Origin: an uncultured Spirochaetales bacterium
Lineage (GTDB): Bacteria > Spirochaetota > Spirochaetia > Sphaerochaetales > Sphaerochaetaceae
Reading direction: 5' to 3'
Assembly (NCBI GenBank): GCA_947305945.1
Contig: CAMZFA010000004.1
Coordinates: 1 to 35,659, forward strand
DNA length: 35,659 bases
A program made the position numbers and the translations under genes. Below are positions 11,079 through 23,446 of this stretch, in pieces; position 1 is the stretch's first letter, and each line of letters starts with the position of its first letter. A model generated the notes under the pieces. It made no database searches. It was given only the letters and a program-made list of their open reading frames with translations, and was not told where the DNA came from.

Positions 11079-13655
11079 ATGGCTGATACACCGCTCATGA
11101 GACAGTACCGCGAAATGAAGGCATCCTATGCCGACATGGTGCTGTTTTTCAGGCTCGGTGATTTTTATGAAATGTTTGATGAGGACGCCGTGGAGGTGTC
11201 CTCACTGCTTAATCTCACTCTGACGCACAAGGGAGATTCCCCCATGTGCGGAATTCCCTTCCATGCAGCCAGAAACTACATTAAAAGACTTCTGGAACTG
11301 GGTAAGAAGATTGCAGTCTGCGAGCAGACTTCAATTCCGGCTGACGGAAGAACACTTGCAAAAAGGGAAGTGGTAAGGATCATTACTCCTGCTACTGTTG
11401 TTGATGAGGATTTTCTGGGAAGTCCCGACTACAACTTTGTGCTCTCTGTTTTCAGAGCAGACTGTGCCTACTGTGACATTTCCACGGGAGATTTCATTTT
11501 AAGGCCCCTGGACAAGGACAACAGGATACAGGCTCTGAGAAGTGTGATTGAACAGATTTCACCCAGGGAAATTCTTGTCTGCGATGATGAATATTTTCTG
11601 GACGCCAAACTGAAAGACGCCCTGGACGGTGCCGGTGTAATGGTCACAAAGCTTCCGCCCTGGCATTTCACACGTAATACCTGTTACAAACTGCTCTGTG
11701 AAGAAGCCCGTGTGAACAGTCTGGCCTCATTCGGTATTAAACCCACTGACAACGTGGTCTGTCCTGCAGGTGCCCTTATGAGGTACGTGAAGGAGACCTC
11801 CATGGGTTCTGTCAGACATCTTACGGACTACAGGCTTTTCAGCGACATGCAGTACGTTGGAATTGATGAGTCCAGCAGAAGGAACCTGGAGCTGTTTTCC
11901 AACCTTCATGACGGAAGTTCAAGGGCAAGCCTTTTCTCCACAATCAACAGATGCAGAACATACGGAGGAACCAGACTGCTCAGGTCATGGATTTCATCTC
12001 CGTTGAGGGACATTGCTCAAATCAGGGAAAGACAGGACCACGTCCGTTATTTTTATGAAAACGGTGAGGAACTGAAGAGGGTCAGAAACCTTATCCACGG
12101 TGCCATGGACCTGAACAGGCTCACAACAAGGGTTTTCCTGAGAAGGGCCGTTCCTCATGACCTTACTGCAATCAGGCAGAGTGTCCTTACATTCATTGAA
12201 ATAGTGGGAGAGAATCCTGAAAGATACAGAAGCATGTTCACATCCCTTCTCTGTGATGATGAGAAGGTGGGCAGGGCCGTGGAGCTTGCCGCCGGGATAG
12301 GAAGAGCCGTGAATCCTGAGTTTCTGGGCCAGTTCAACGCCGGAGAGGTGATTCTTGACGGCTATGATTCAGATTTGGATGAAAAGAGGCAGCTATACAG
12401 AAACAGTGATGAGATTCTAAGGCGTTATCTTGAGGAAGAGAAGACAAACAGCGGTCTTACAATCCTGAAACTGGGCTACAACCGTGTCTTCGGCTATTAT
12501 CTGGAGGTCCCCAACGGACAGCTTTCAAAGGTTCCGGACTACTTCATAAGAAGACAGACCCTTGTCAACGGAGAGCGCTTCACAACAGAAAAACTCAGAA
12601 CGTTTGAACATGAAATTCTTTCTGCACAGGCACTTGCCGAGGAGAGGGAAAGGGAGCTTTACAGGCATCTTCTTGAGCTTACCGATCAGGTTTCGGATGT
12701 TCTCAATGAAATGGGCTCTTTCATGAACCTTACGGATGTCTATCAGGCACTTGCCACACTTGCCGTTGATTCCTCCTACACCTGTCCTGAGGTTTGCGAG
12801 GATGATGTTCTTGAAATAGAGGAAGGCAGGCATCCGGTTGTTGAGAAGATGCTGGGTCCGGGCAAGTTTGTTCCCAATGATCTGGACATGAGTGTGCGCT
12901 TTTCACTCATCACAGGTCCCAATATGGCGGGAAAATCAACATACCTCAGGCAGAATGCCCTGATTATTCTCCTTGCCCATGCGGGAAGCTTTGTTCCGGC
13001 AAAAAAGGCCAGAATAGGGCTTGTAGACAGAATCTTCTGCCGCGTGGGAGCATCTGACAATCTCTCGGGCGGAGAATCAACCTTCCTTGTCGAGATGCAG
13101 GAAACTGCTTTCATCCTCAGAACCTGCACTTCGAGAAGTTTTGTCATTGTGGATGAGATTGGAAGGGGAACCAGCACTCAGGACGGTATGTCAATTGCCT
13201 GGGCTGTTATGAAAAACCTTTCGGAAAAGTCCTGCAGAACACTCTTTGCAACACACTACCATGAACTGACAATGGTTGATACAAGCGGAATCAGGCTTCT
13301 TACACTTCAGGTTGAGGAGAAGGGTGACAGCATAGTGTTTTTGAGAAAGGTCTGTGAGGGTGTTGCAAACTCAAGTTACGGCATACATGTTGCAAAGATG
13401 GCAGGAGTTCCCAATACGGTGATAAGGGATGCAAGGTCTTTCCAGAACCGTCATTTTGCAGACTACGGTCCCCAGACTTCAAGCCTGTTCACTTCCGATG
13501 CTCCGGAAACTACGCTTTCTTCATTCCGCGACCCTGCGGAGGAGGAGATTCTCAGGACCCTGAGGGAGTGCAACACGGATTCCCTTACGCCCATCCAGGC
13601 CATGCTCCTTCTTTCAAAACTTGGTGAGGATGTCAGAGCTCTGCCATCAGAGTAA
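11079..13655 (+). CDS. mutS: DNA mismatch repair protein MutS
   Basis: MRQYREMKASYADMVLFFRLGDFYEMF; Walker A TGPNMAGKSTYLRQ; SGGESTFLVEMQET; FVIVDEIGRGTST; FATHYHELT. Confidence 0.98.
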   Translation: MADTPLMRQYREMKASYADMVLFFRLGDFYEMFDEDAVEVSSLLNLTLTHKGDSPMCGIPFHAARNYIKRLLELGKKIAVCEQTSIPADGRTLAKREVVRIITPATVVDEDFLGSPDYNFVLSVFRADCAYCDISTGDFILRPLDKDNRIQALRSVIEQISPREILVCDDEYFLDAKLKDALDGAGVMVTKLPPWHFTRNTCYKLLCEEARVNSLASFGIKPTDNVVCPAGALMRYVKETSMGSVRHLTDYRLFSDMQYVGIDESSRRNLELFSNLHDGSSRASLFSTINRCRTYGGTRLLRSWISSPLRDIAQIRERQDHVRYFYENGEELKRVRNLIHGAMDLNRLTTRVFLRRAVPHDLTAIRQSVLTFIEIVGENPERYRSMFTSLLCDDEKVGRAVELAAGIGRAVNPEFLGQFNAGEVILDGYDSDLDEKRQLYRNSDEILRRYLEEEKTNSGLTILKLGYNRVFGYYLEVPNGQLSKVPDYFIRRQTLVNGERFTTEKLRTFEHEILSAQALAEERERELYRHLLELTDQVSDVLNEMGSFMNLTDVYQALATLAVDSSYTCPEVCEDDVLEIEEGRHPVVEKMLGPGKFVPNDLDMSVRFSLITGPNMAGKSTYLRQNALIILLAHAGSFVPAKKARIGLVDRIFCRVGASDNLSGGESTFLVEMQETAFILRTCTSRSFVIVDEIGRGTSTQDGMSIAWAVMKNLSEKSCRTLFATHYHELTMVDTSGIRLLTLQVEEKGDSIVFLRKVCEGVANSSYGIHVAKMAGVPNTVIRDARSFQNRHFADYGPQTSSLFTSDAPETTLSSFRDPAEEEILRTLRECNTDSLTPIQAMLLLSKLGEDVRALPSE

Positions 13656-14325
13656 AGGCCTGTACCTTTTCAAATCCGTTATCTTTGAGAAGATTCATGC
13701 AGCTTCTGATTGTGGAACCTGTGGTAACTGTATCATCTATAACAATATAGGTCTTTGAGGTATCGGCCGTTGAGGCCGTTTTCATGTTGATTGAGTATTT
13801 GCCCTCACTGGCGTTTATCCTCTGGCTTCTGTCCAGTGTTTTCTGCTGTCTGTCAGCGCTGCGGTTGTTTTCAATCAGAAACAGGCATTCAAGCCCGTGT
13901 TTTCTTTTAAGGCAGAGGGCAATGTCCTTCATCTGGTCCCATTTCCTCTTCTTCAGGCTTTCACGGGAGCAGGGAACGGGGACAATGACAATGTTCTTAA
14001 GGTCCCGGAAGTCCTGTTTAAGTGCCGTGTAAAACTCCTCTGCTATCAGCGTTGAGAAGTCCCTTCTTTCCTCAAATTTCCACTGCTCGAGTATGTGCCG
14101 GAAAAAGGGTGATCTGTAGTCATAGATGCTGAAGATGCGCTGTGTGTTGCCTCCGGTGCAAGCAGGGCATTTGTACAAGGTTGATACAAGGGGCCTTGCG
14201 CACCCGGGGCAGCGTACGGCAAAGCTGTCAAACTTTCCGGCATCTGCAATTGTGCGGCAGGAAGGGCAGAGGGAAGCGGGAAAGCTGACCGTGGAACTGC
14301 AGAAAAGGCAGCGGTTTATAAACAT
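13633..14325 (-). CDS. comF: ComF-family phosphoribosyltransferase-like protein
   Basis: Cys pairs CLFCSS/CPSC/CPGC/CPAC at the N-terminus and PRTase motif YIVIDDTVTTGSTI. 3' end overlaps mutS by 23 bp. Confidence 0.9.
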   Translation of the reverse strand: MFINRCLFCSSTVSFPASLCPSCRTIADAGKFDSFAVRCPGCARPLVSTLYKCPACTGGNTQRIFSIYDYRSPFFRHILEQWKFEERRDFSTLIAEEFYTALKQDFRDLKNIVIVPVPCSRESLKKRKWDQMKDIALCLKRKHGLECLFLIENNRSADRQQKTLDRSQRINASEGKYSINMKTASTADTSKTYIVIDDTVTTGSTIRSCMNLLKDNGFEKVQAFTLMAEL

Positions 14326-14331
14326 GTACCA

Positions 14332-14360
14332 AAGATAGTTATATTGACACTTTCCGGCAA
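14332..14360 (-). promoter_or_regulatory. Candidate comF promoter; would give a leaderless mRNA
   Basis: Minus strand TTGCCG (14360-14355), 17-nt spacer, TATCTT (14337-14332); six nt separate the -10 from the comF ATG and no SD is visible. Confidence 0.35.
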
Positions 14361-14372
14361 TAGCATTAAATT
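14344..14372 (+). promoter_or_regulatory. Candidate strong sigma-70 promoter for rimP-nusA-infB
   Basis: TTGACA (14344-14349), 17-nt spacer, TAAATT (14367-14372); predicted start ~14379. Confidence 0.6.
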
Positions 14373-14403
14373 TATCAACGTAGATAGATTAAAACTTTGT
14401 TTT

Positions 14404-14436
14404 AAGGAATCGGCAAATAGCACGGTTCCTTTTTTT
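14404..14436 (+). terminator. Leader intrinsic terminator/attenuator between promoter and rimP start
   Basis: AAGGAATCG-gcaaatagca-CGGTTCCTT (9-bp stem, one T.G), with a run of seven T at 14430-14436, ending just before the rimP SD (GGAG). Confidence 0.6.
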
Positions 14437-14445
14437 ACGGAGAAA

Positions 14446-14925
14446 ATGCTTAAGAACGAACTTAAAGACAATGAACTTTACAAGCTCCTGAAGCCCACGG
14501 CCGACGGACTGGGAATGACAATCGTGGAGGTTCAGAAGAACATCTGCGGGCCTGCCGAGACAAAGGTTGTCATAACGGTCATGAAGAATGACGGGGAAAC
14601 TTCCATAGATGACCTGGAAACCTTCCACCGTGCCGTCCAGAGCCTGCTTGAGCTGACCATAGGACGTGACATTCTTTCAATGGAAACCGGTACGCCGGGC
14701 CTTGAGAGGAACTTCAGGGACTATGCGGAGTTTGAGATTTTCCGCGGCAGACAGGTGAAGATCTACAGCACTGCCGCCGGGGACTGGATCAGCGGGACCA
14801 TTGGCCCGTGCACAGGAACCTCAGTTGTCCTTACGGACGATGACGGTAACGAAATTGTTGCAGAATATAAAGATATCCACAAGGCAAGACTTGATTACAA
14901 GTGGATTAAAAACACAGGGAGATAG
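14446..14925 (+). CDS. rimP: Ribosome maturation factor RimP
   Basis: MLKNELKDNELYKLLKPTADGLGMTIVEVQ...LEVGTPGL-like SMETGTPGLERNF; directly upstream of nusA. ATG at 14446 (codon 35 of the listed ORF), since the TTG at 14344 is the -35 box. Confidence 0.9.
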   Translation: MLKNELKDNELYKLLKPTADGLGMTIVEVQKNICGPAETKVVITVMKNDGETSIDDLETFHRAVQSLLELTIGRDILSMETGTPGLERNFRDYAEFEIFRGRQVKIYSTAAGDWISGTIGPCTGTSVVLTDDDGNEIVAEYKDIHKARLDYKWIKNTGR

Positions 14926-14927
14926 AG

Positions 14928-16409
14928 ATGTCCGAGTTTAAAGCTGCCGTAGAGGCAATGATGAATGAAAAAGGTATGACACGTGAGCTTGTTCTTGAAA
15001 CCATAGAACAGACACTGAAGGCTACCTATAAGAACAAGTACAAGACAGACGAGAATGCGGTTGTCACATTTGCAGATGACCTCTCATCATTTGAGCTTGC
15101 TTCAAGAAGAACGGTTGTCAAGGATGAGGACTATGAAGAAGGCAACATTCTTGAGATTCCTCTCTCGGAGGCTCTTGAACTTTCCGATGAGGCAGAACCC
15201 GGTGATGAGCTTCTCATTCCCATTGATCCGCGCAGTTTCAACAGAAGCAGCGTCCAGACCGGAAAGCAGAGAGCAACAAGCAGGATAAGGGAAATCCAGA
15301 AGGAAGAACTCTACTCCGAATTCAAGGGCAAGGTGGGTGAGATCATCAACGGCTATGTCCAGGCCATTCATGACAACGGAGACATGATGGTTGACCTTGG
15401 AAGGACTTCCGGTTATCTGCCCAAAAAGAACCAGAGCCCCAGGGAAACATATCAGAAGAATGACAAGATCCGCTGCTATGTTGAGAGCGTGAAGCCGGAT
15501 GAGAAGAATGACAAGAACATCCGCGTTCTGCTTTCAAGAACACATGAGAACTTCATCAAGAAGCTCTTCTACCTCAACGTTCCCGAACTTGGTGCCAAGG
15601 AGCCCAGTCTTGAAATAATCAAGATTGTCCGTGAGCCCGGTTACAGAACCAAGGTTGCAGTATGGCCCATCAAGAGTGATGTTGATGCCGTAGGAACCTG
15701 TGTAGGTCTGAAGGGTGCAAGAATCCAGGCTGTCATGCGTGAGATTGATGATGAGCGCATTGACGTTGTCCGCTGGGATCCCAATCCGCTTGAGTACATT
15801 GCCAACGCCCTTTCTCCGGCCAAGGTCGAGAAGATCTACGTTACGGACTTTGACAAGAAGATGGCCGTGGCTATTGTAGATCCCGGTCAGCTTTCACTTG
15901 CAATTGGAAAGCAGGGCCTGAATGTGCGTCTTGTCAACCGGATGTGTGACTGGATTGTAGACGTCAAGACACAGGAAGACTTTGAAGCTATGGATATCTT
16001 TGAGCAGGCACGTTCTGCTGCAGATGCTGCATTTGAGATTCCCGAGGAGCAGGAAGAGCCTCAGATTGAGTATGCTTCCGATACGGAAGAGGGTATTCCC
16101 CTTTCTGATCTTCCCCTTGATGCTGCAATTATCAAAAAGCTTGAAATCCATGACATTCTCACTGTTGAGGAGTTCCTTGAGTATTCAGAGGATGAACTCA
16201 GGGAGATGGGTGACATTTCCGATGAGGAGATTCAGACCATCAACACCGTAATCAGGGAGAACATTGACATAGTTGAAGATGAAGAACAGACCGAAGATGC
16301 AGGCTTTGTATGTCCCAACTGCGGACATCCGCTGTCAGAGGGCATGACAGAGTGTCCCAACTGCCACGTTGGCATCAGTTTCGAGTCCGTTGATGATAAT
16401 CAGGAGTGA
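14928..16409 (+). CDS. nusA: Transcription termination/antitermination protein NusA with C-terminal zinc-ribbon-like tail
   Basis: NusA N-terminal domain, S1 domain (IINGYVQAIHDNGDMMVDLG), KH domains (PGYRTKVAVWPIKSDVDAVGTCVGLKGARIQAVMREI); tail CPNCGHPLSEGMTECPNCHVG. Confidence 0.97.
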   Translation: MSEFKAAVEAMMNEKGMTRELVLETIEQTLKATYKNKYKTDENAVVTFADDLSSFELASRRTVVKDEDYEEGNILEIPLSEALELSDEAEPGDELLIPIDPRSFNRSSVQTGKQRATSRIREIQKEELYSEFKGKVGEIINGYVQAIHDNGDMMVDLGRTSGYLPKKNQSPRETYQKNDKIRCYVESVKPDEKNDKNIRVLLSRTHENFIKKLFYLNVPELGAKEPSLEIIKIVREPGYRTKVAVWPIKSDVDAVGTCVGLKGARIQAVMREIDDERIDVVRWDPNPLEYIANALSPAKVEKIYVTDFDKKMAVAIVDPGQLSLAIGKQGLNVRLVNRMCDWIVDVKTQEDFEAMDIFEQARSAADAAFEIPEEQEEPQIEYASDTEEGIPLSDLPLDAAIIKKLEIHDILTVEEFLEYSEDELREMGDISDEEIQTINTVIRENIDIVEDEEQTEDAGFVCPNCGHPLSEGMTECPNCHVGISFESVDDNQE

Positions 16410-16411
16410 GA

Positions 16412-19021
16412 ATGGCTGAAGAGAACAAAACCAAGGTAACACTTATCAAACAGACTAAGATTCCACAGCAGGCTCCGGTAGCTCCCGCAGCTCCGGCCCC
16501 GGCTCCGGAAAAGAAGAAGGTTCTTCTGGTGAAGAAGAAACCGGTGGTTGTTGTAAAAGCCCAGCCGGCTCCGGCTCCCGCTCCTGAGCCTGTACCTGCA
16601 CCGGCTCCCGAGGCTCCTGTTGTCAAGGAAGCACCCGCTGCCCAGCCGGCTCCCGCAAAACAGGCACCTGCTGCTGAAGTTCGTACAGAGCCTGTCAAAC
16701 CCGCTCCCGCAAAGGCTGCCCCTGTAAAGGAACAGCCTGCACAGCGTGTTGTAAGAAAGCCCTCCGCTGCGGCAAATACCACAATCAACAACGGCCCGGT
16801 CATCATCAAGGCGGCCGGAAATCTTCCGCCCATCAATCCCACCGCTCCTGCAAGATCCTCAGGTTCAAGACAGGTCGGCTCAGTAGGCGGTGTTACATAC
16901 GGAAGGGACGGACAGCGCATCCAGGTCAACAGACAGAGAAATTCAAACCAGCCCAACCAGGGTGTATATACTCCCAAATCCAGCCAGGGCGGCAACAGAG
17001 GAATGAAAACCGACAGACAGGGCGGTTTCCAGAAACCCGGTTTCGGCGGTCCCAAGGGTAACGGTCAGGGCGCAGGCCGCGGCGGCTTCACCCCTGCAGC
17101 ACCCATGGCAGACGGCAAGAACAAGCGCGTCTATTCAAAGGACAAGGGCAAGGACAGAAGACACGAGACCACAGAGGACGAGTTTGAGCTCAAACAGTTC
17201 GGCAAGAAGAAGTCCTCCGAGCCTACTGCCGTTGTGGCAAAGAGCATTGACATCATGAACACAATCACGGTCAGTGATCTTGCCAAGAAGATGAATATCA
17301 AGGCTTCCGAGATAATCAGCAAGCTCTTCTCAATGGGAACCATGGTTACTATGAATGAGAGCATTGACAGTGAGACAGCACAGATCATTGCAAGTGAATA
17401 CGGCTGTGAGGTACATATCATTGATCTTTACGAGGAAACCGTCATAACCCGTGAAGAGGACAGGGAAGAGGATCTTGTTCCCCGCGCTCCCATTGTCACG
17501 GTCATGGGTCACGTTGACCACGGTAAGACAAAACTTCTGGATGCCATAAGGCAGACAAACGTTGTTGCCGGTGAGTTCGGCGGAATTACCCAGCACATAG
17601 GTGCCTACAAGGTCAACATTCCCGGAAAGGGAGATGTTGTATTCCTTGATACTCCGGGTCACGCAGCCTTTACCCTCATGAGGGCAAGAGGTGCACAGCT
17701 GACTGATATTGTAGTACTTGTTGTAGCCGCAAATGACGGAGTCATGCCTCAGACTCTTGAGGCAATTGACCACGCCAAGGCTGCAAAGTGTCCCATAATT
17801 GTTGCAATCAACAAGATAGACCTTCCGGAAGCCAAGCCGGAAAGGGTCATGCAGCAGCTTTCCGAAAAGGGCCTTATCCCCGAGGAATGGGGCGGAGACA
17901 CAATGTATTGCCAGATTTCAGCATTGAAGAAGGAAGGTATAGACACACTTCTTGAAACCATTCTTCTCCAGGCCGAGATCATGGAACTCAAGGCAAATCC
18001 CGACTGCCGTGCCGAAGGAAAGATTCTTGAAGCAAGAATAGACCAGGGCCGCGGTACTGTTGCCACGGTCATTGTCGAGCGCGGTACACTCAAGCAGGGT
18101 GACTACTACGTTGCCGGAATCTACTCCGGTAGGGTAAGAGCCATGTTCGACGACAAGGGACGCAAGATCAAGAGCGCCGGTCCCTCAACCCCCGTTGAGG
18201 TCATAGGTCTTTCGGATGTTCCCAGCGCAGGTGATCCGTTCCAGGTCTGTGAAGACGAAAAGCAGGCCAGACAGATTGGTTCCAAGAGACAGGAGCTTGA
18301 GCGCCTGAACCAGGCCAACAAGTTCAAGAAGGTTACACTGGACAACATGTTCGACGTCATGCATGAAGGCGACAAGCAGGAACTCAACATTGTCATCAAG
18401 GGTGACGTTCAGGGCTCTGTTGAAGCACTTCAGCTGGCTCTTGAGAAACTCAGCAACAATGAGATCAATGTCAGGGTCATCCGTGCCGCAGCAGGTGCAA
18501 TTATTGAAGACGATATCAACCTTGCATCAGCTTCAGAGAATCCTGCCATAGTAATTGGATTCAACGTAAGGCCCACGCCCAAGGCACAGGCCCGCGCCGA
18601 TGAGGAACATGTTGAGATCAGAAAGTACAACATCATTTACAACGTTGTTGATGATGTGAAGGCTGCAATGGAAGGCATGCTGTCTCCGGAGAAGACGGAG
18701 GTGGATATAGGTACCGCACAGGTACGTCAGGTCTTCAAGGTACCCAAGGTGGGTCTTGTTGCCGGATGTTACATTCTTACAGGTCTTGTCAAACGCAACA
18801 GCTGGTGCCGCGTAGTGCGTGACAACATCCAGCTTTCCAAGGATCTTCTCAAGATCTCCTCACTCAAGCGCTTCAAGGACGATGCCCGTGAGGTTGCCGC
18901 AGGCTTTGAATGCGGTATAGGAATTGAGAATTTCCAGGACCTCAGGGAAGGGGATATCATTGAGTTTGTTGAGATTCAGGAAGTTGCCAGAAAACTTGAG
19001 ACCACCGGAGAGTATATCTGA
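16412..19021 (+). CDS. infB: Translation initiation factor IF-2
   Basis: G domain [43 protein letters not shown]; long Pro/Ala/Lys-rich N-terminal region. ATG at 16412 with GGAG SD. Confidence 0.98.
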
Positions 19022-19368
19022 TGGACAACTACAACGCACAGAGGCTTGAATCCAGGATTCAGGAGGCCGTGAACACCTTGATTGTAAGCGGTGACATCAA
19101 GAATCCGTTCCTCAGCAGATTTACATCCGTAACAGGAGTAAGTCTTTCCAAGGACAACAGTTATGCAAAGCTGTACGTTTCATGTCTGGAGGACAGCAGG
19201 CTTGAGAAAAGTACTGCGGCCCTTCAGAGTGCCTCGGGTTACATCCAGAGCAGACTTGCAAAGATTCTCAAGACACGCAACACCCCCAGACTCACATTCA
19301 TTGCAGATACCACTCAGCGTGAGGCGGCAAGGGTGAATGACCTTCTGGAGTCTGTTAAAAGTGAATGA
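19021..19368 (+). CDS. rbfA: Ribosome-binding factor A
   Basis: 115 aa, RbfA-like (VTGVSLSKDNSYAKLYVS...SGYIQSRLAKILKTRNTPRLTFIAD), start overlapping infB stop, between infB and truB. Confidence 0.92.
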   Translation: MDNYNAQRLESRIQEAVNTLIVSGDIKNPFLSRFTSVTGVSLSKDNSYAKLYVSCLEDSRLEKSTAALQSASGYIQSRLAKILKTRNTPRLTFIADTTQREAARVNDLLESVKSE

Positions 19369-20062
19369 CAGGAATACGGTGACCCTCATCCGCAAGGAAA
19401 GCGGGGTCACTTCTTTTTCAAGCCTCAGATACGTCAAGAAATACGTAAACAGAAAGACCGGTCACTGCGGCACCCTGGACAAGTTTGCCACGGGTCTTCT
19501 TATTGCATGTTGCGGAAAATACACCAAAAAGGTTCCGCTATTCATGGGACTGGACAAGGAGTATGTCGCGGTGATTGAGTTCGGCGTTGAGACGGACACC
19601 CTGGATCCTGAGGGAAACATAATTTCACGTGCAAATGTTCCTTCTTTTGAGACAATCAGGGATAACGTGGCCCGCATGACAGGAATGATCATGCAGGCTC
19701 CTCCTGCATTCAGCGCCCTCCATATTGACGGAAAAAGAAGCTATGAGCTTGCCAGAAAAGGAGTTGATGTTCAGATTGAGAAGAGACCCGTTTACATACA
19801 CAGTGCGGAGATACTGAACTGGAGTTCTCCCTATCTGACCGTAAGACTCAATGTCTCAAAGGGAACATACGTAAGATCCTACGCCCGTGATCTGGCACTT
19901 GCCTGCTCTTCAAGGGCTTATGTATCTGCTCTTGAGAGAACAAAGATAGGGCCGTTTTCCCTGGATGATGCTGTTTCATGGAACAATACCGGTGCTCTTG
20001 AGAAACTTGATGAAGGCACGGCGGAGGCTCTGCTTTCACGTCTTGGGGAGTACGGAAAGTGA
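19361..20062 (+). CDS. truB: tRNA pseudouridine(55) synthase TruB (probable GTG start)
   Basis: GHCGTLDKFATGLLIACCGKYTK catalytic motif; KEYVAVIEFGVETDTLDPEG; start overlaps rbfA. Confidence 0.93.
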   Translation: MNDRNTVTLIRKESGVTSFSSLRYVKKYVNRKTGHCGTLDKFATGLLIACCGKYTKKVPLFMGLDKEYVAVIEFGVETDTLDPEGNIISRANVPSFETIRDNVARMTGMIMQAPPAFSALHIDGKRSYELARKGVDVQIEKRPVYIHSAEILNWSSPYLTVRLNVSKGTYVRSYARDLALACSSRAYVSALERTKIGPFSLDDAVSWNNTGALEKLDEGTAEALLSRLGEYGK

Positions 20063-20877
20063 GGATCTTTGATTTTGCCGATCCGGCATACGGAAACAGA
20101 AGATGCGTGCTCACCATAGGGGTCTTTGACGGCCTTCACAGAGGTCATGAGAAGATAATAGACACCTGTGTTGCAAGGGCGCGTGAAAAGGGTGTTGAAA
20201 GTGTTGTTGTCACCTTCAGTTCCAACCCAAAGATGGAAAAGGGCAGGGAGGAGAAACTGCCGGCCCTGATGTCCACTGGGGATTTCAGTCAAATTCTTTC
20301 GGAAAAAGGCGTTGACAGCCTTGCTGTAATTGACTTTTCCGACAATATGAGTAAACTTTCAGGAGAGGAGTTCATGGCCCTGCTCTGTACGTCGTACAGG
20401 CTTGAGGCAATGATTGTAGGAAACAGTTTCCGTTGCGGAAATCCTGCACAGAGTGCCGGTCCCGCAGAACTGGAGAAACTGCTTCGGAAATACACTTCAT
20501 CTGCTTCTCTGGAGGTTGTTCCCCCGGTGCTTGTCAAGGGAACCGAGGTAAGCAGCACTCTGGTGCGCAGATGTCTCCTTACAGGTGATACGGAGTATGC
20601 ATCCGTATTGCTTGGCAGAGCGTACAGTCTTGACCTCAGGTCCGTGGATTTTGAGAGAAGGGCTGATAACCGCCTGTTTTACAGTATCCGTGCTTTCAGA
20701 CAGCTTCTGCCCAAAGCGGGAGCCTATGAGGTGAAAGCTGCAGGGATTGCTGAATCTGCACCAATGTCCGGTCCTGCGGACTGTGATGCAGAAGCGGTAA
20801 TCGGAAAAGACGGTCTGGTTCTTGACCTGCATGCACGGATCATACCGGACAGAATATCATTTCCTTCAGGAGAGTAA
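20059..20877 (+). CDS. ribF: RibF-family FAD synthetase; flavokinase half shortened/divergent
   Basis: [19 protein letters not shown] nucleotidyltransferase motif; [32 protein letters not shown] start overlapping truB stop. No recognisable GxPTAN flavokinase motif. Confidence 0.87.
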
Positions 20878-20882
20878 CAAAG

Positions 20883-21149
20883 ATGGTTACAAAGGAACAG
20901 AAACAGGAACTTATTGTCAAATTCGGCGGCAATGAGGCCAACACAGGTGCTGCAGAAGTTCAGATTGCACTTCTCACAGCAAGAATCAATGATCTGCAGG
21001 GGCATTTCAAGGCCAACCCCAAGGATCACGCATCAAACCGCGGTCTTCTCAAGATGGTCGGTCAGAGAAGAAGACTTCTCAAGTATGTCAGAAACAATGA
21101 CATTGAGAAGTACCGCAAGCTCATTGCAGAGCTCGGACTCAGAAAATAA
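20883..21149 (+). CDS. rpsO: 30S ribosomal protein S15
   Basis: 88 aa; [50 protein letters not shown]. Confidence 0.98.
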
Positions 21150-21157
21150 GAGATTAC

Positions 21158-21181
21158 CAGGGGCCGTTCATATGGCCCCTG
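21158..21181 (+). other. Perfect hairpin between rpsO and pnp (processing/attenuation candidate)
   Basis: CAGGGGCC-gttcatat-GGCCCCTG, 8-bp perfect stem; no U-tract follows (TATCTTGTG). Confidence 0.7.
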
Positions 21182-21235
21182 TATCTTGTGTCCGGTGAAA
21201 GAAAAAAGAAGTTAAAGAAGTTAAGGAAGAAATTT

Positions 21236-23446
21236 ATGTCAGAAGTAAAAACAGTTTCAGTCCGGCTTGGAGATGACGAGCTTGTCTTTGAGACAGGCAG
21301 AATTGCCAAGCAGGCAAACGGAGCAGTATTTGCACACTATGCAGGCTCCGCAGTAATAGCCACTGTCTGTTGTTCGGATGAACCCAGCCAGTTGCTTGAT
21401 TATGTCCCGGTTTCAGTGGAATACAATGAAAAATATTATGCAGCAGGCAAGATTCCCGGAGGTTTCCTCAAGAGAGAATCAAAGCCCAAGGACAAGGAGA
21501 TTCTTGTCAGCCGTCTTATAGACCGCCCCATGAGACCTCTTTTCGAGAAGGCCTTCTCAAGAGAGATCCAGATTGTACCTACTGTTGTTTCAACAGACCA
21601 GATCAATACACCGGATATCATAGCAATCAACGCCGCCAGCGCGGCTGTAACTATTTCGGATATTCCCTTCAACGGACCCATTGCAGGCGTGCGTGTGGCC
21701 CTCATTGACGGTGAATATGTAATCAACCCCACGTTCCAGCAGATTGAAATTGCTGACCTTGACATTGTAGTTGCAGGAACAAGGGACGGAATCACAATGG
21801 TTGAGGGCGGTGCCCATGAAGTATCCGAGCAGAACATGCTCGATGCCATTGCCGCCGCACAGCCGGTCATCACAAAACTCTGTGATGCACAGCTTGAGCT
21901 CAGACGCATTGCCGGAAAGGAGAAACTTCCCGTTCTCACAGCTGAGGAAAAGGACCTCTCATGGCTCGAACCCGTAAAGGAGTACACAACCCCGCTGGTA
22001 AAGGAAGCATTCTTCGTAAAGGGCAAGCAGGTCAGATCCCTTGCAGTAGGAAAAGTCAAGGAACAGGTGAAGGAACACTTTGCAGATCTTCTTGCAGAGC
22101 ATGAGGATGCAGGTGAAGAGCTTGCCAAGATGTTCGATGACATGGAATACAACATGCTCAGGGCATCAATTCTCAATGACGGAGTCCGTATCGACGGAAG
22201 AAAGGTCAACGAGATCAGACCCATTACATGCGAGGTAGGTGTTCTTGACAGGACACACGGAAGCGCACTCTTCACAAGAGGAGAGACACAGAGCCTTGCA
22301 GTCACAACACTCGGAACAGTTCAGGACGAGCAGCTGTTTGACAACATTGACGGTGACAAGAACTACAGCAACTTCATGCTGCACTACAACTTCCCGCCGT
22401 ACTCTGTAGGTGAGACAGGTCGTCTTACAACAGGCAGAAGGGAAATCGGTCACGGACATCTTGCACAGCGTGCCCTCCAGGCAGTTGTTCCTGCAAAGGA
22501 TGAGTTCCCGTACACAGTACGTGTTGTTTCAGAGATCATGGAATCAAACGGTTCATCTTCAATGGCCTCCGTCTGCGGCGGATGTCTCTCCCTCATGGAT
22601 GCAGGTGTTCCCATTGACAAGCCCGTTGCCGGTATTGCCATGGGTCTGATCACCGAAGGTGCAGACTACAGCAGATATCAGATTCTTTCAGATATTCTGG
22701 GTGAGGAAGACCACCTCGGAGACATGGACTTCAAGGTTGCAGGTACACGTGACGGAATCACAGCTTTCCAGATGGATATCAAGATTGCCGGCGTTACACC
22801 TGAAATCATGAGCAAGGCACTTCAGCAGGCCAAGGAAGGACGTTACCACATTCTGGGCATCATGGAGCAGACACTTGCAGCTCCCAGAGCGGAAATCAAC
22901 AAGTACGCCCCCAAGATTCTGACAACCAAGGTTGATGAGGACAAGATCGGTGCCGTTATCGGTACAGGCGGAAAGACAATCAAGGGTATTGCCCAGGTAA
23001 CCGGAGCTGAGGTCAACATTGACGATGACGGAACAGTCATCATCTACGGCAAGAACACAGCCAGCGCCCAGGCAGCTCTTGAAATGGTTAAGGCCATAAT
23101 CGAGGAGCCCGAGGTAGGCAAAATCTACCAGGGTACCGTTAAGCGCATCATGGACTTCGGTGCATTTGTAGAGATTCTTCCCGGCAAGGAAGGTCTGTGC
23201 CACATCTCAAAGCTTGCCAGAACAAGGGTTGAGAATGTTTCGGACGTTCTTTCAGTCGGTCAGGTAATCCCTGTGAAGCTTGTTGAGATTGACCGCACCG
23301 GCGGAAGACTCAGCCTGTCCTATATTGATGCAATTGATCCGGACGGAGAGAAGAAGGAAGCTCCCAGGTCAGACAGACCCAGAAGAGACTCCAACAAGCC
23401 CCGCTTCCCGAGAAAGCCAAGGACTGAGTCCAAGAACAATGACTGA
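21236..23446 (+). CDS. pnp: Polyribonucleotide nucleotidyltransferase (PNPase)
   Basis: [36 protein letters not shown]-type core, KH ([15 protein letters not shown]) and S1 ([26 protein letters not shown]) domains. ATG at 21236 with AAGGAAG SD; the listed upstream start is not supported. Confidence 0.97.

Follow-up and report, generated by a model that had tools for sequence, protein, structure and literature searches.

The rimP-nusA-infB operon of an uncultured spirochaete raises the question of what an intrinsic terminator does between the promoter and the first gene of an operon that encodes NusA itself. The stretch of DNA that we analysed (35,659 nucleotides, hereafter the window) is contig 4 of an incomplete genome of 1.33 Mb; uncultured Spirochaetales/Sphaerochaetaceae genomes, including one from horse faeces, are the closest named relatives of this genome. 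The features that bear on the question are the following:

13633-14325, minus strand: comF-like phosphoribosyltransferase gene, divergent, the immediate upstream neighbour of rimP
14344-14372, plus strand: sigma-70-type promoter of the operon, TTGACA-17-TAAATT (sequence reading and promoter scan)
14379-14436, plus strand: predicted attenuated leader RNA, about 58 nt (from the promoter and terminator positions)
14389-14405, plus strand: small AU hairpin UUAAAAC-UUU-GUUUUAA (TTAAAAC-TTT-GTTTTAA in the DNA), -1.3 kcal/mol
14404-14436, plus strand: leader terminator (putative attenuator), AAGGAAUCGGC-AAAUA-GC-A-CGGUUCCUU, then the U-tract (reading, folding, scan, covariance model, conservation and covariation)
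14439-14442, plus strand: Shine-Dalgarno GGAG of rimP, 3 nt before the ATG (direct reading)
14446-14925, plus strand: rimP, 159 aa, operon gene 1 (RimP_N above the Pfam cut-off; relatives in 128 of 139 family genomes)
14928-16409, plus strand: nusA, 493 aa (NusA N-terminal, S1 and KH domains; C-terminal zinc-ribbon-like segment)
16406-19021, plus strand: infB (IF-2), the next operon gene after nusA
19021-23446, plus strand: the remaining gene run of rbfA, truB, a ribF-like gene (FAD synthetase), rpsO (S15) and pnp

Promoter, leader and terminator in the window

By direct reading, the -35 hexamer TTGACA (14344-14349) is separated by a 17-nt spacer from the -10 hexamer TAAATT (14367-14372), and a promoter scan recovers the same promoter with a score of 10/12. 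With transcription taken to start 7 nt after the -10 hexamer, the predicted leader RNA has a fold z of -2.94. A first-pass annotation made from the letters alone had reported this promoter, both hairpins, the T7 run, the Shine-Dalgarno sequence and the start codon, and each was confirmed to the base. It had also seen no room for a promoter between terminator and rimP, which is correct: 9 nt lie between the U-tract and the rimP ATG (14446). Since the promoter is upstream of the terminator and only these 9 nt follow the U-tract, the operon must be transcribed through the terminator. Next to rimP on the upstream side is the divergent comF-like gene and not mutS, which is located beyond it, seen from rimP. 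The encoded NusA has a zinc-ribbon-like end at residues 460-479 (CPNC...CPNC), with Pfam zinc-ribbon matches just below the cut-offs; to our knowledge, such a C-terminal segment is unusual for NusA.

The stem arms of the terminator read AAGGAATCG (14404-14412) and CGGTTCCTT (14423-14431), followed by T7 at 14430-14436. The first-pass annotation had taken this for a short AT-rich stem of 9 pairs with a 10-nt loop, of the weak kind. Folding instead gives 11 pairs (six of them G-C, with GGAAUCG/CGGUUCC in the stem), a 1-nt bulge and a 5-nt loop at -13.1 kcal/mol, a value matched by 0 of 200 shuffles, so that here the hairpin does not appear to be particularly weak or AT-rich; the group median across relatives is -11.7 kcal/mol, compared with -13.1 kcal/mol and T7 in the window. 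In our own scan it is the only plus-strand hairpin at -13 kcal/mol with a full U-tract in the 35.7-kb window, the other two plus-strand matches being weaker (-9.7 and -10.1) with interrupted T-runs, and an equally stable hairpin arose in 0 of 300 Markov-shuffled copies of the intergenic stretch. A packaged terminator scan of the window missed the rimP leader hairpin because its loop limit is 8 nt. Across relatives, a purine (98%) and then a T (80%, both group-weighted) come directly after the U-tract, as in U7-AUG; the window itself has AC.

The small hairpin at 14389-14405 is present as first described, and outside the window's genus it was seen in just one or two neighbouring genera. Over 58 groups, shuffled sequence folds as well as the stretch before the stem (mean z -0.09 +/- 0.11), and the AU hairpin, not being conserved, was rejected as a functional part of the element and is probably not functional. 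Pairing of the leader with the 5' arm gave no signal over the same 58 groups (z -0.05), so an antiterminator was rejected as well, and no larger conserved structure besides the terminator was found in these groups. A known riboswitch or r-protein leader was dismissed for want of an Rfam match in the window at E up to 1; 19 relatives compared with RF01770, the gammaproteobacterial rimP leader, did not match it at E values up to 5. An AUG or GUG often follows the U-tract, but as a short upstream ORF it has no consistent frame or stop on reading the sequences. In the read-through RNA, CUUUGU (14395-14400) can pair with ACGGAG (14437-14442), covering the rimP Shine-Dalgarno sequence; by eye, this pairing is not kept in one related genome (G001).

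Conservation of the leader and of its stem sequence

Conservation in relatives, on which the first-pass annotation had let its proposal of a NusA autoregulatory attenuator depend, is extensive for both the hairpin and the T-run. RimP was found in 128 of the 139 genomes of the window's family, and when all upstream stretches were read, a hairpin with U-tract preceded rimP in 128/128 (126 placed automatically, two, G023 and G082, by eye). All but one or two of the 128 have a TTGAC promoter before the hairpin (the contig of G096 starts before the -35). Stems differ by genus: GGAAUCG in g1 and g18, GGGAUCG in g5-g10, g12 and g21, GGAACC in g2, GGGGAUCGCC with a 3' bulge in g16, and GGGACC in g11, where nearly all leaders have the interrupted U-tract UUUAUU (e.g., L042 554-585). 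At the level of the class, 276 of 297 genomes have RimP, and the promoter, hairpin and U-tract precede rimP in 60 of 61 sampled loci from more than 40 other families, with rimP followed by nusA in all 61. Automatic placement failed for G153 and G176, in which the element is plain in the sequence or was found by pattern; stems in G144 and G156 are divergent. The one sampled class locus without the element belongs to G211, a reduced genome of 1.1 Mb, so that at least one genome can do without it. In other classes of the phylum, a leader terminator is clear in about 22 of 40 sampled loci, some with GAGUGG/CCACUC. Most groups keep at least six T in the U-tract, and the distance from stem to start codon ranges from about 10 to 200 nt across relatives. 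Recurrence before rimP across family and class means that the hairpin is not a chance occurrence, and these comparisons strongly support reading the order promoter-terminator-rimP as a conserved leader attenuator.

The spacing between promoter and stem is likewise regular. An exact TTGAC stands at the same distance from the stem in 125 of 126 scored family genomes and 53 of 58 scored class genomes and is rare in other upstream bins, and the promoter spacer is 17 nt in 50 of 58 class loci. From the end of the -10 to the stem the median distance is 27 nt in the family and 29 nt in the class (interquartile range 25-32), which puts the predicted transcription start about 20 nt before the stem.

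Most sampled class loci outside the window's family have the stem GAGUCG/CGRCUC. In an alignment of 71 sequences, all 8 stem pairs have changes on both sides, with 84 double-changed cells (counting sequences, not independent events) compared with 22.3 +/- 8.3 in shuffles; 95.8% of cells are paired, and slid controls drop to 37-68%. The covariation in related spirochaetes that the first-pass annotation had named as a check is thus present at every pair. Of the 297 class genomes, 71 contain the exact pattern GAGTCG-N(2-8)-CGRCTC-T6, almost always as a single copy. Among 66 distinct exact sites that were checked, 63 share the strand of rimP and are no more than about 210 nt upstream of it, showing that the GAGUCG/CGRCUC stem is essentially rimP-specific. 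Two exact terminators of this type were seen away from rimP (L325 and L334, in G165 and G301). With a covariance model, the rimP site is the best match in the window's genome and in many others, the model's training sequences matching by construction. By itself the model does not single out rimP: the scores of other terminators come within a few bits, and in some genomes an ordinary terminator outscores the rimP site. The exact pattern is specific, and rimP is marked by the stem sequence and not by the fold alone. Most of the other good model matches that were inspected follow genes or fall between them, in two cases downstream of an apparent tRNA, so that no regulon sharing the element was seen; one match, a similar GGGAUCG terminator before a pyrB-like gene (L305 335-367, in G025), is a possible separate attenuator.

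Relation to known rimP and nusA leaders

The kind of element is already known, and what we describe is a spirochaete variant. Naville and Gautheret (2010, PMC2965389) presented the rimP-leader as the most ubiquitous attenuator and reported a rimP-specific stem and no antiterminator; they argued for a protein sensor, with NusA as the best candidate and RimP feedback also considered, and cited autoregulation of the E. coli operon by NusA. Judged by its sequence, the spirochaete element shares its place in the 5' UTR of rimP, the first gene of rimP-nusA-infB, as well as the short intrinsic terminator hairpin with U-stretch, the unusually conserved and rimP-specific stem sequence, the lack of an antiterminator or larger leader structure (in most species there) and NusA as the proposed sensor. 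The stem itself differs: the majority of species there have GGGc(...)gCCC, compared with GAGUCG(...)CGRCUC in the spirochaete class and GGAAUCG, GGGAUCG or GGGACC in the window's family. As this signature is absent, we call the window's element a variant of the rimP-leader and not a plain member. The main text of that paper makes no mention of spirochaetes.

The gammaproteobacterial rimP leader (RF01770) and the E. coli K-12 leader likewise have a terminator just upstream of rimP, and the E. coli hairpin GGGCUUUAGGCCC followed by U7AUG has the same arrangement as in spirochaetes; E. coli differs in having two tandem terminators and metY upstream, and the RF01770 covariance model matches neither the window nor the 19 relatives, even at lax thresholds. 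In B. subtilis, too, the 5' leader of this operon, the nusA leader, contains an intrinsic terminator, through which NusA autoregulates by stimulating termination (PMC12288461). NusA dependence there is experimental, whereas in spirochaetes it is inferred, and the B. subtilis leader is about 180 nt long (PMC2965389) compared with a predicted 58 nt or so in the window. An interrupted U-tract, the type reported as most NusA-dependent in B. subtilis, is widespread within the family only in g11 (UUUAUU), while the window has T7. The operon is absent from the main text of a Borrelia RNA-end paper, and neither the literature searched nor Rfam holds a description or recognition of a spirochaete form of the rimP leader. 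By sequence and by analogy, the element is probably the spirochaete form of the known NusA feedback brake; its near-universal presence in the class, the GAGUCG/CGRCUC signature and the tight promoter-to-stem geometry appear to be new within that literature.

What the leader may sense

In the mechanism that we favour, polymerase would begin transcription from the promoter (14344-14372) and, in the first 58 nt or so, make the hairpin and U-tract, which would release part of the polymerases before rimP, the remainder reading through into rimP, nusA, infB and the genes behind. Polymerase-bound NusA, by favouring hairpin formation, would raise termination at this point, such that high NusA would lower expression of its own operon and low NusA would relieve it. 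Termination itself, its partial character and the role of NusA as sensor are inferences, and a transcription attenuator with NusA feedback is to our mind the best explanation and a reasonably probable one. Published work on the same operon in other phyla makes NusA control of the leader plausible (PMC12288461; PMC2965389). Some observations speak against it. In B. subtilis, NusA dependence is strongest at weak hairpins or interrupted U-tracts (PMC12288461), while the window has a long T7 and a fair stem (-13.1 kcal/mol); G211 is without the element, which is clear in only about 22 of the 40 loci from other classes. Moreover, about 75% of B. subtilis terminators are stimulated by NusA (PMC12288461), so NusA stimulation alone would be no proof of a dedicated feedback.

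The leader could instead be an attenuator with a different sensor, namely RimP, IF-2, S15 or another operon product, NusG, Rho or the speed of early elongation. A conserved stem sequence would be suitable for any regulator that binds RNA, several RNA-binding proteins are encoded in the operon, and RimP feedback was considered for the published rimP-leader (PMC2965389); nevertheless, we think such a sensor rather unlikely, given that the literature searched reports no control of this leader other than attenuation stimulated by NusA (PMC12288461) and that NusA autoregulation of the E. coli operon is cited too (PMC2965389). Nothing in the RNA alone makes the leader switchable, as no antiterminator or second conserved structure was found, and this would fit a partial terminator of fixed strength, which sets how much the operon is expressed and responds to nothing. 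Such a terminator needs pairing only, however, while here the stem sequence is conserved beyond what pairing requires and is specific to rimP, and different stems serve the other terminators of these genomes, leaving this explanation with a small chance.

A role mainly in the read-through mRNA, either in 5' protection or in limiting rimP translation, we regard as quite improbable: the CUUUGU/ACGGAG pairing in the window's genus would be in keeping with it, but the conserved U-tract is unneeded for translation or stability, and the variable distance from stem to start codon does not fit either. Finally, the hairpin might be the 3' terminator of an upstream comF left before rimP, considering that comF lies upstream in the same direction in most relatives (at least 44 of 61 class loci). 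Since the hairpin is kept where comF is inverted, as in the window's genus, and the rimP promoter stands between comF and hairpin at a fixed spacing, we rejected this origin as extremely improbable. The inversion was seen in the window's genus only; elsewhere, where detected, comF is upstream and in the same direction, and its stop codon then often overlaps the rimP -35.

Returning to NusA feedback, NusA, or NusA in complex with polymerase, might recognise GAGUCG/CGRCUC as a clade-specific signal, and with the stem at a fixed position about 20 nt after the start, the leader might sense how quickly NusA joins polymerase after sigma leaves. We offer this as a tentative idea that may well not hold. 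A terminator with a conserved stem sequence, and not just conserved pairing, is unusual and raises the question of what reads the sequence; the class-wide alignment provides a ready set of natural variants with which reading of the stem could be tested in vitro. The promoter-to-terminator geometry in spirochaetes is very regular, and with this element the feedback on the NusA/IF-2 operon, proposed to be near-universal, would reach an ancient phylum that has a stem signature of its own.
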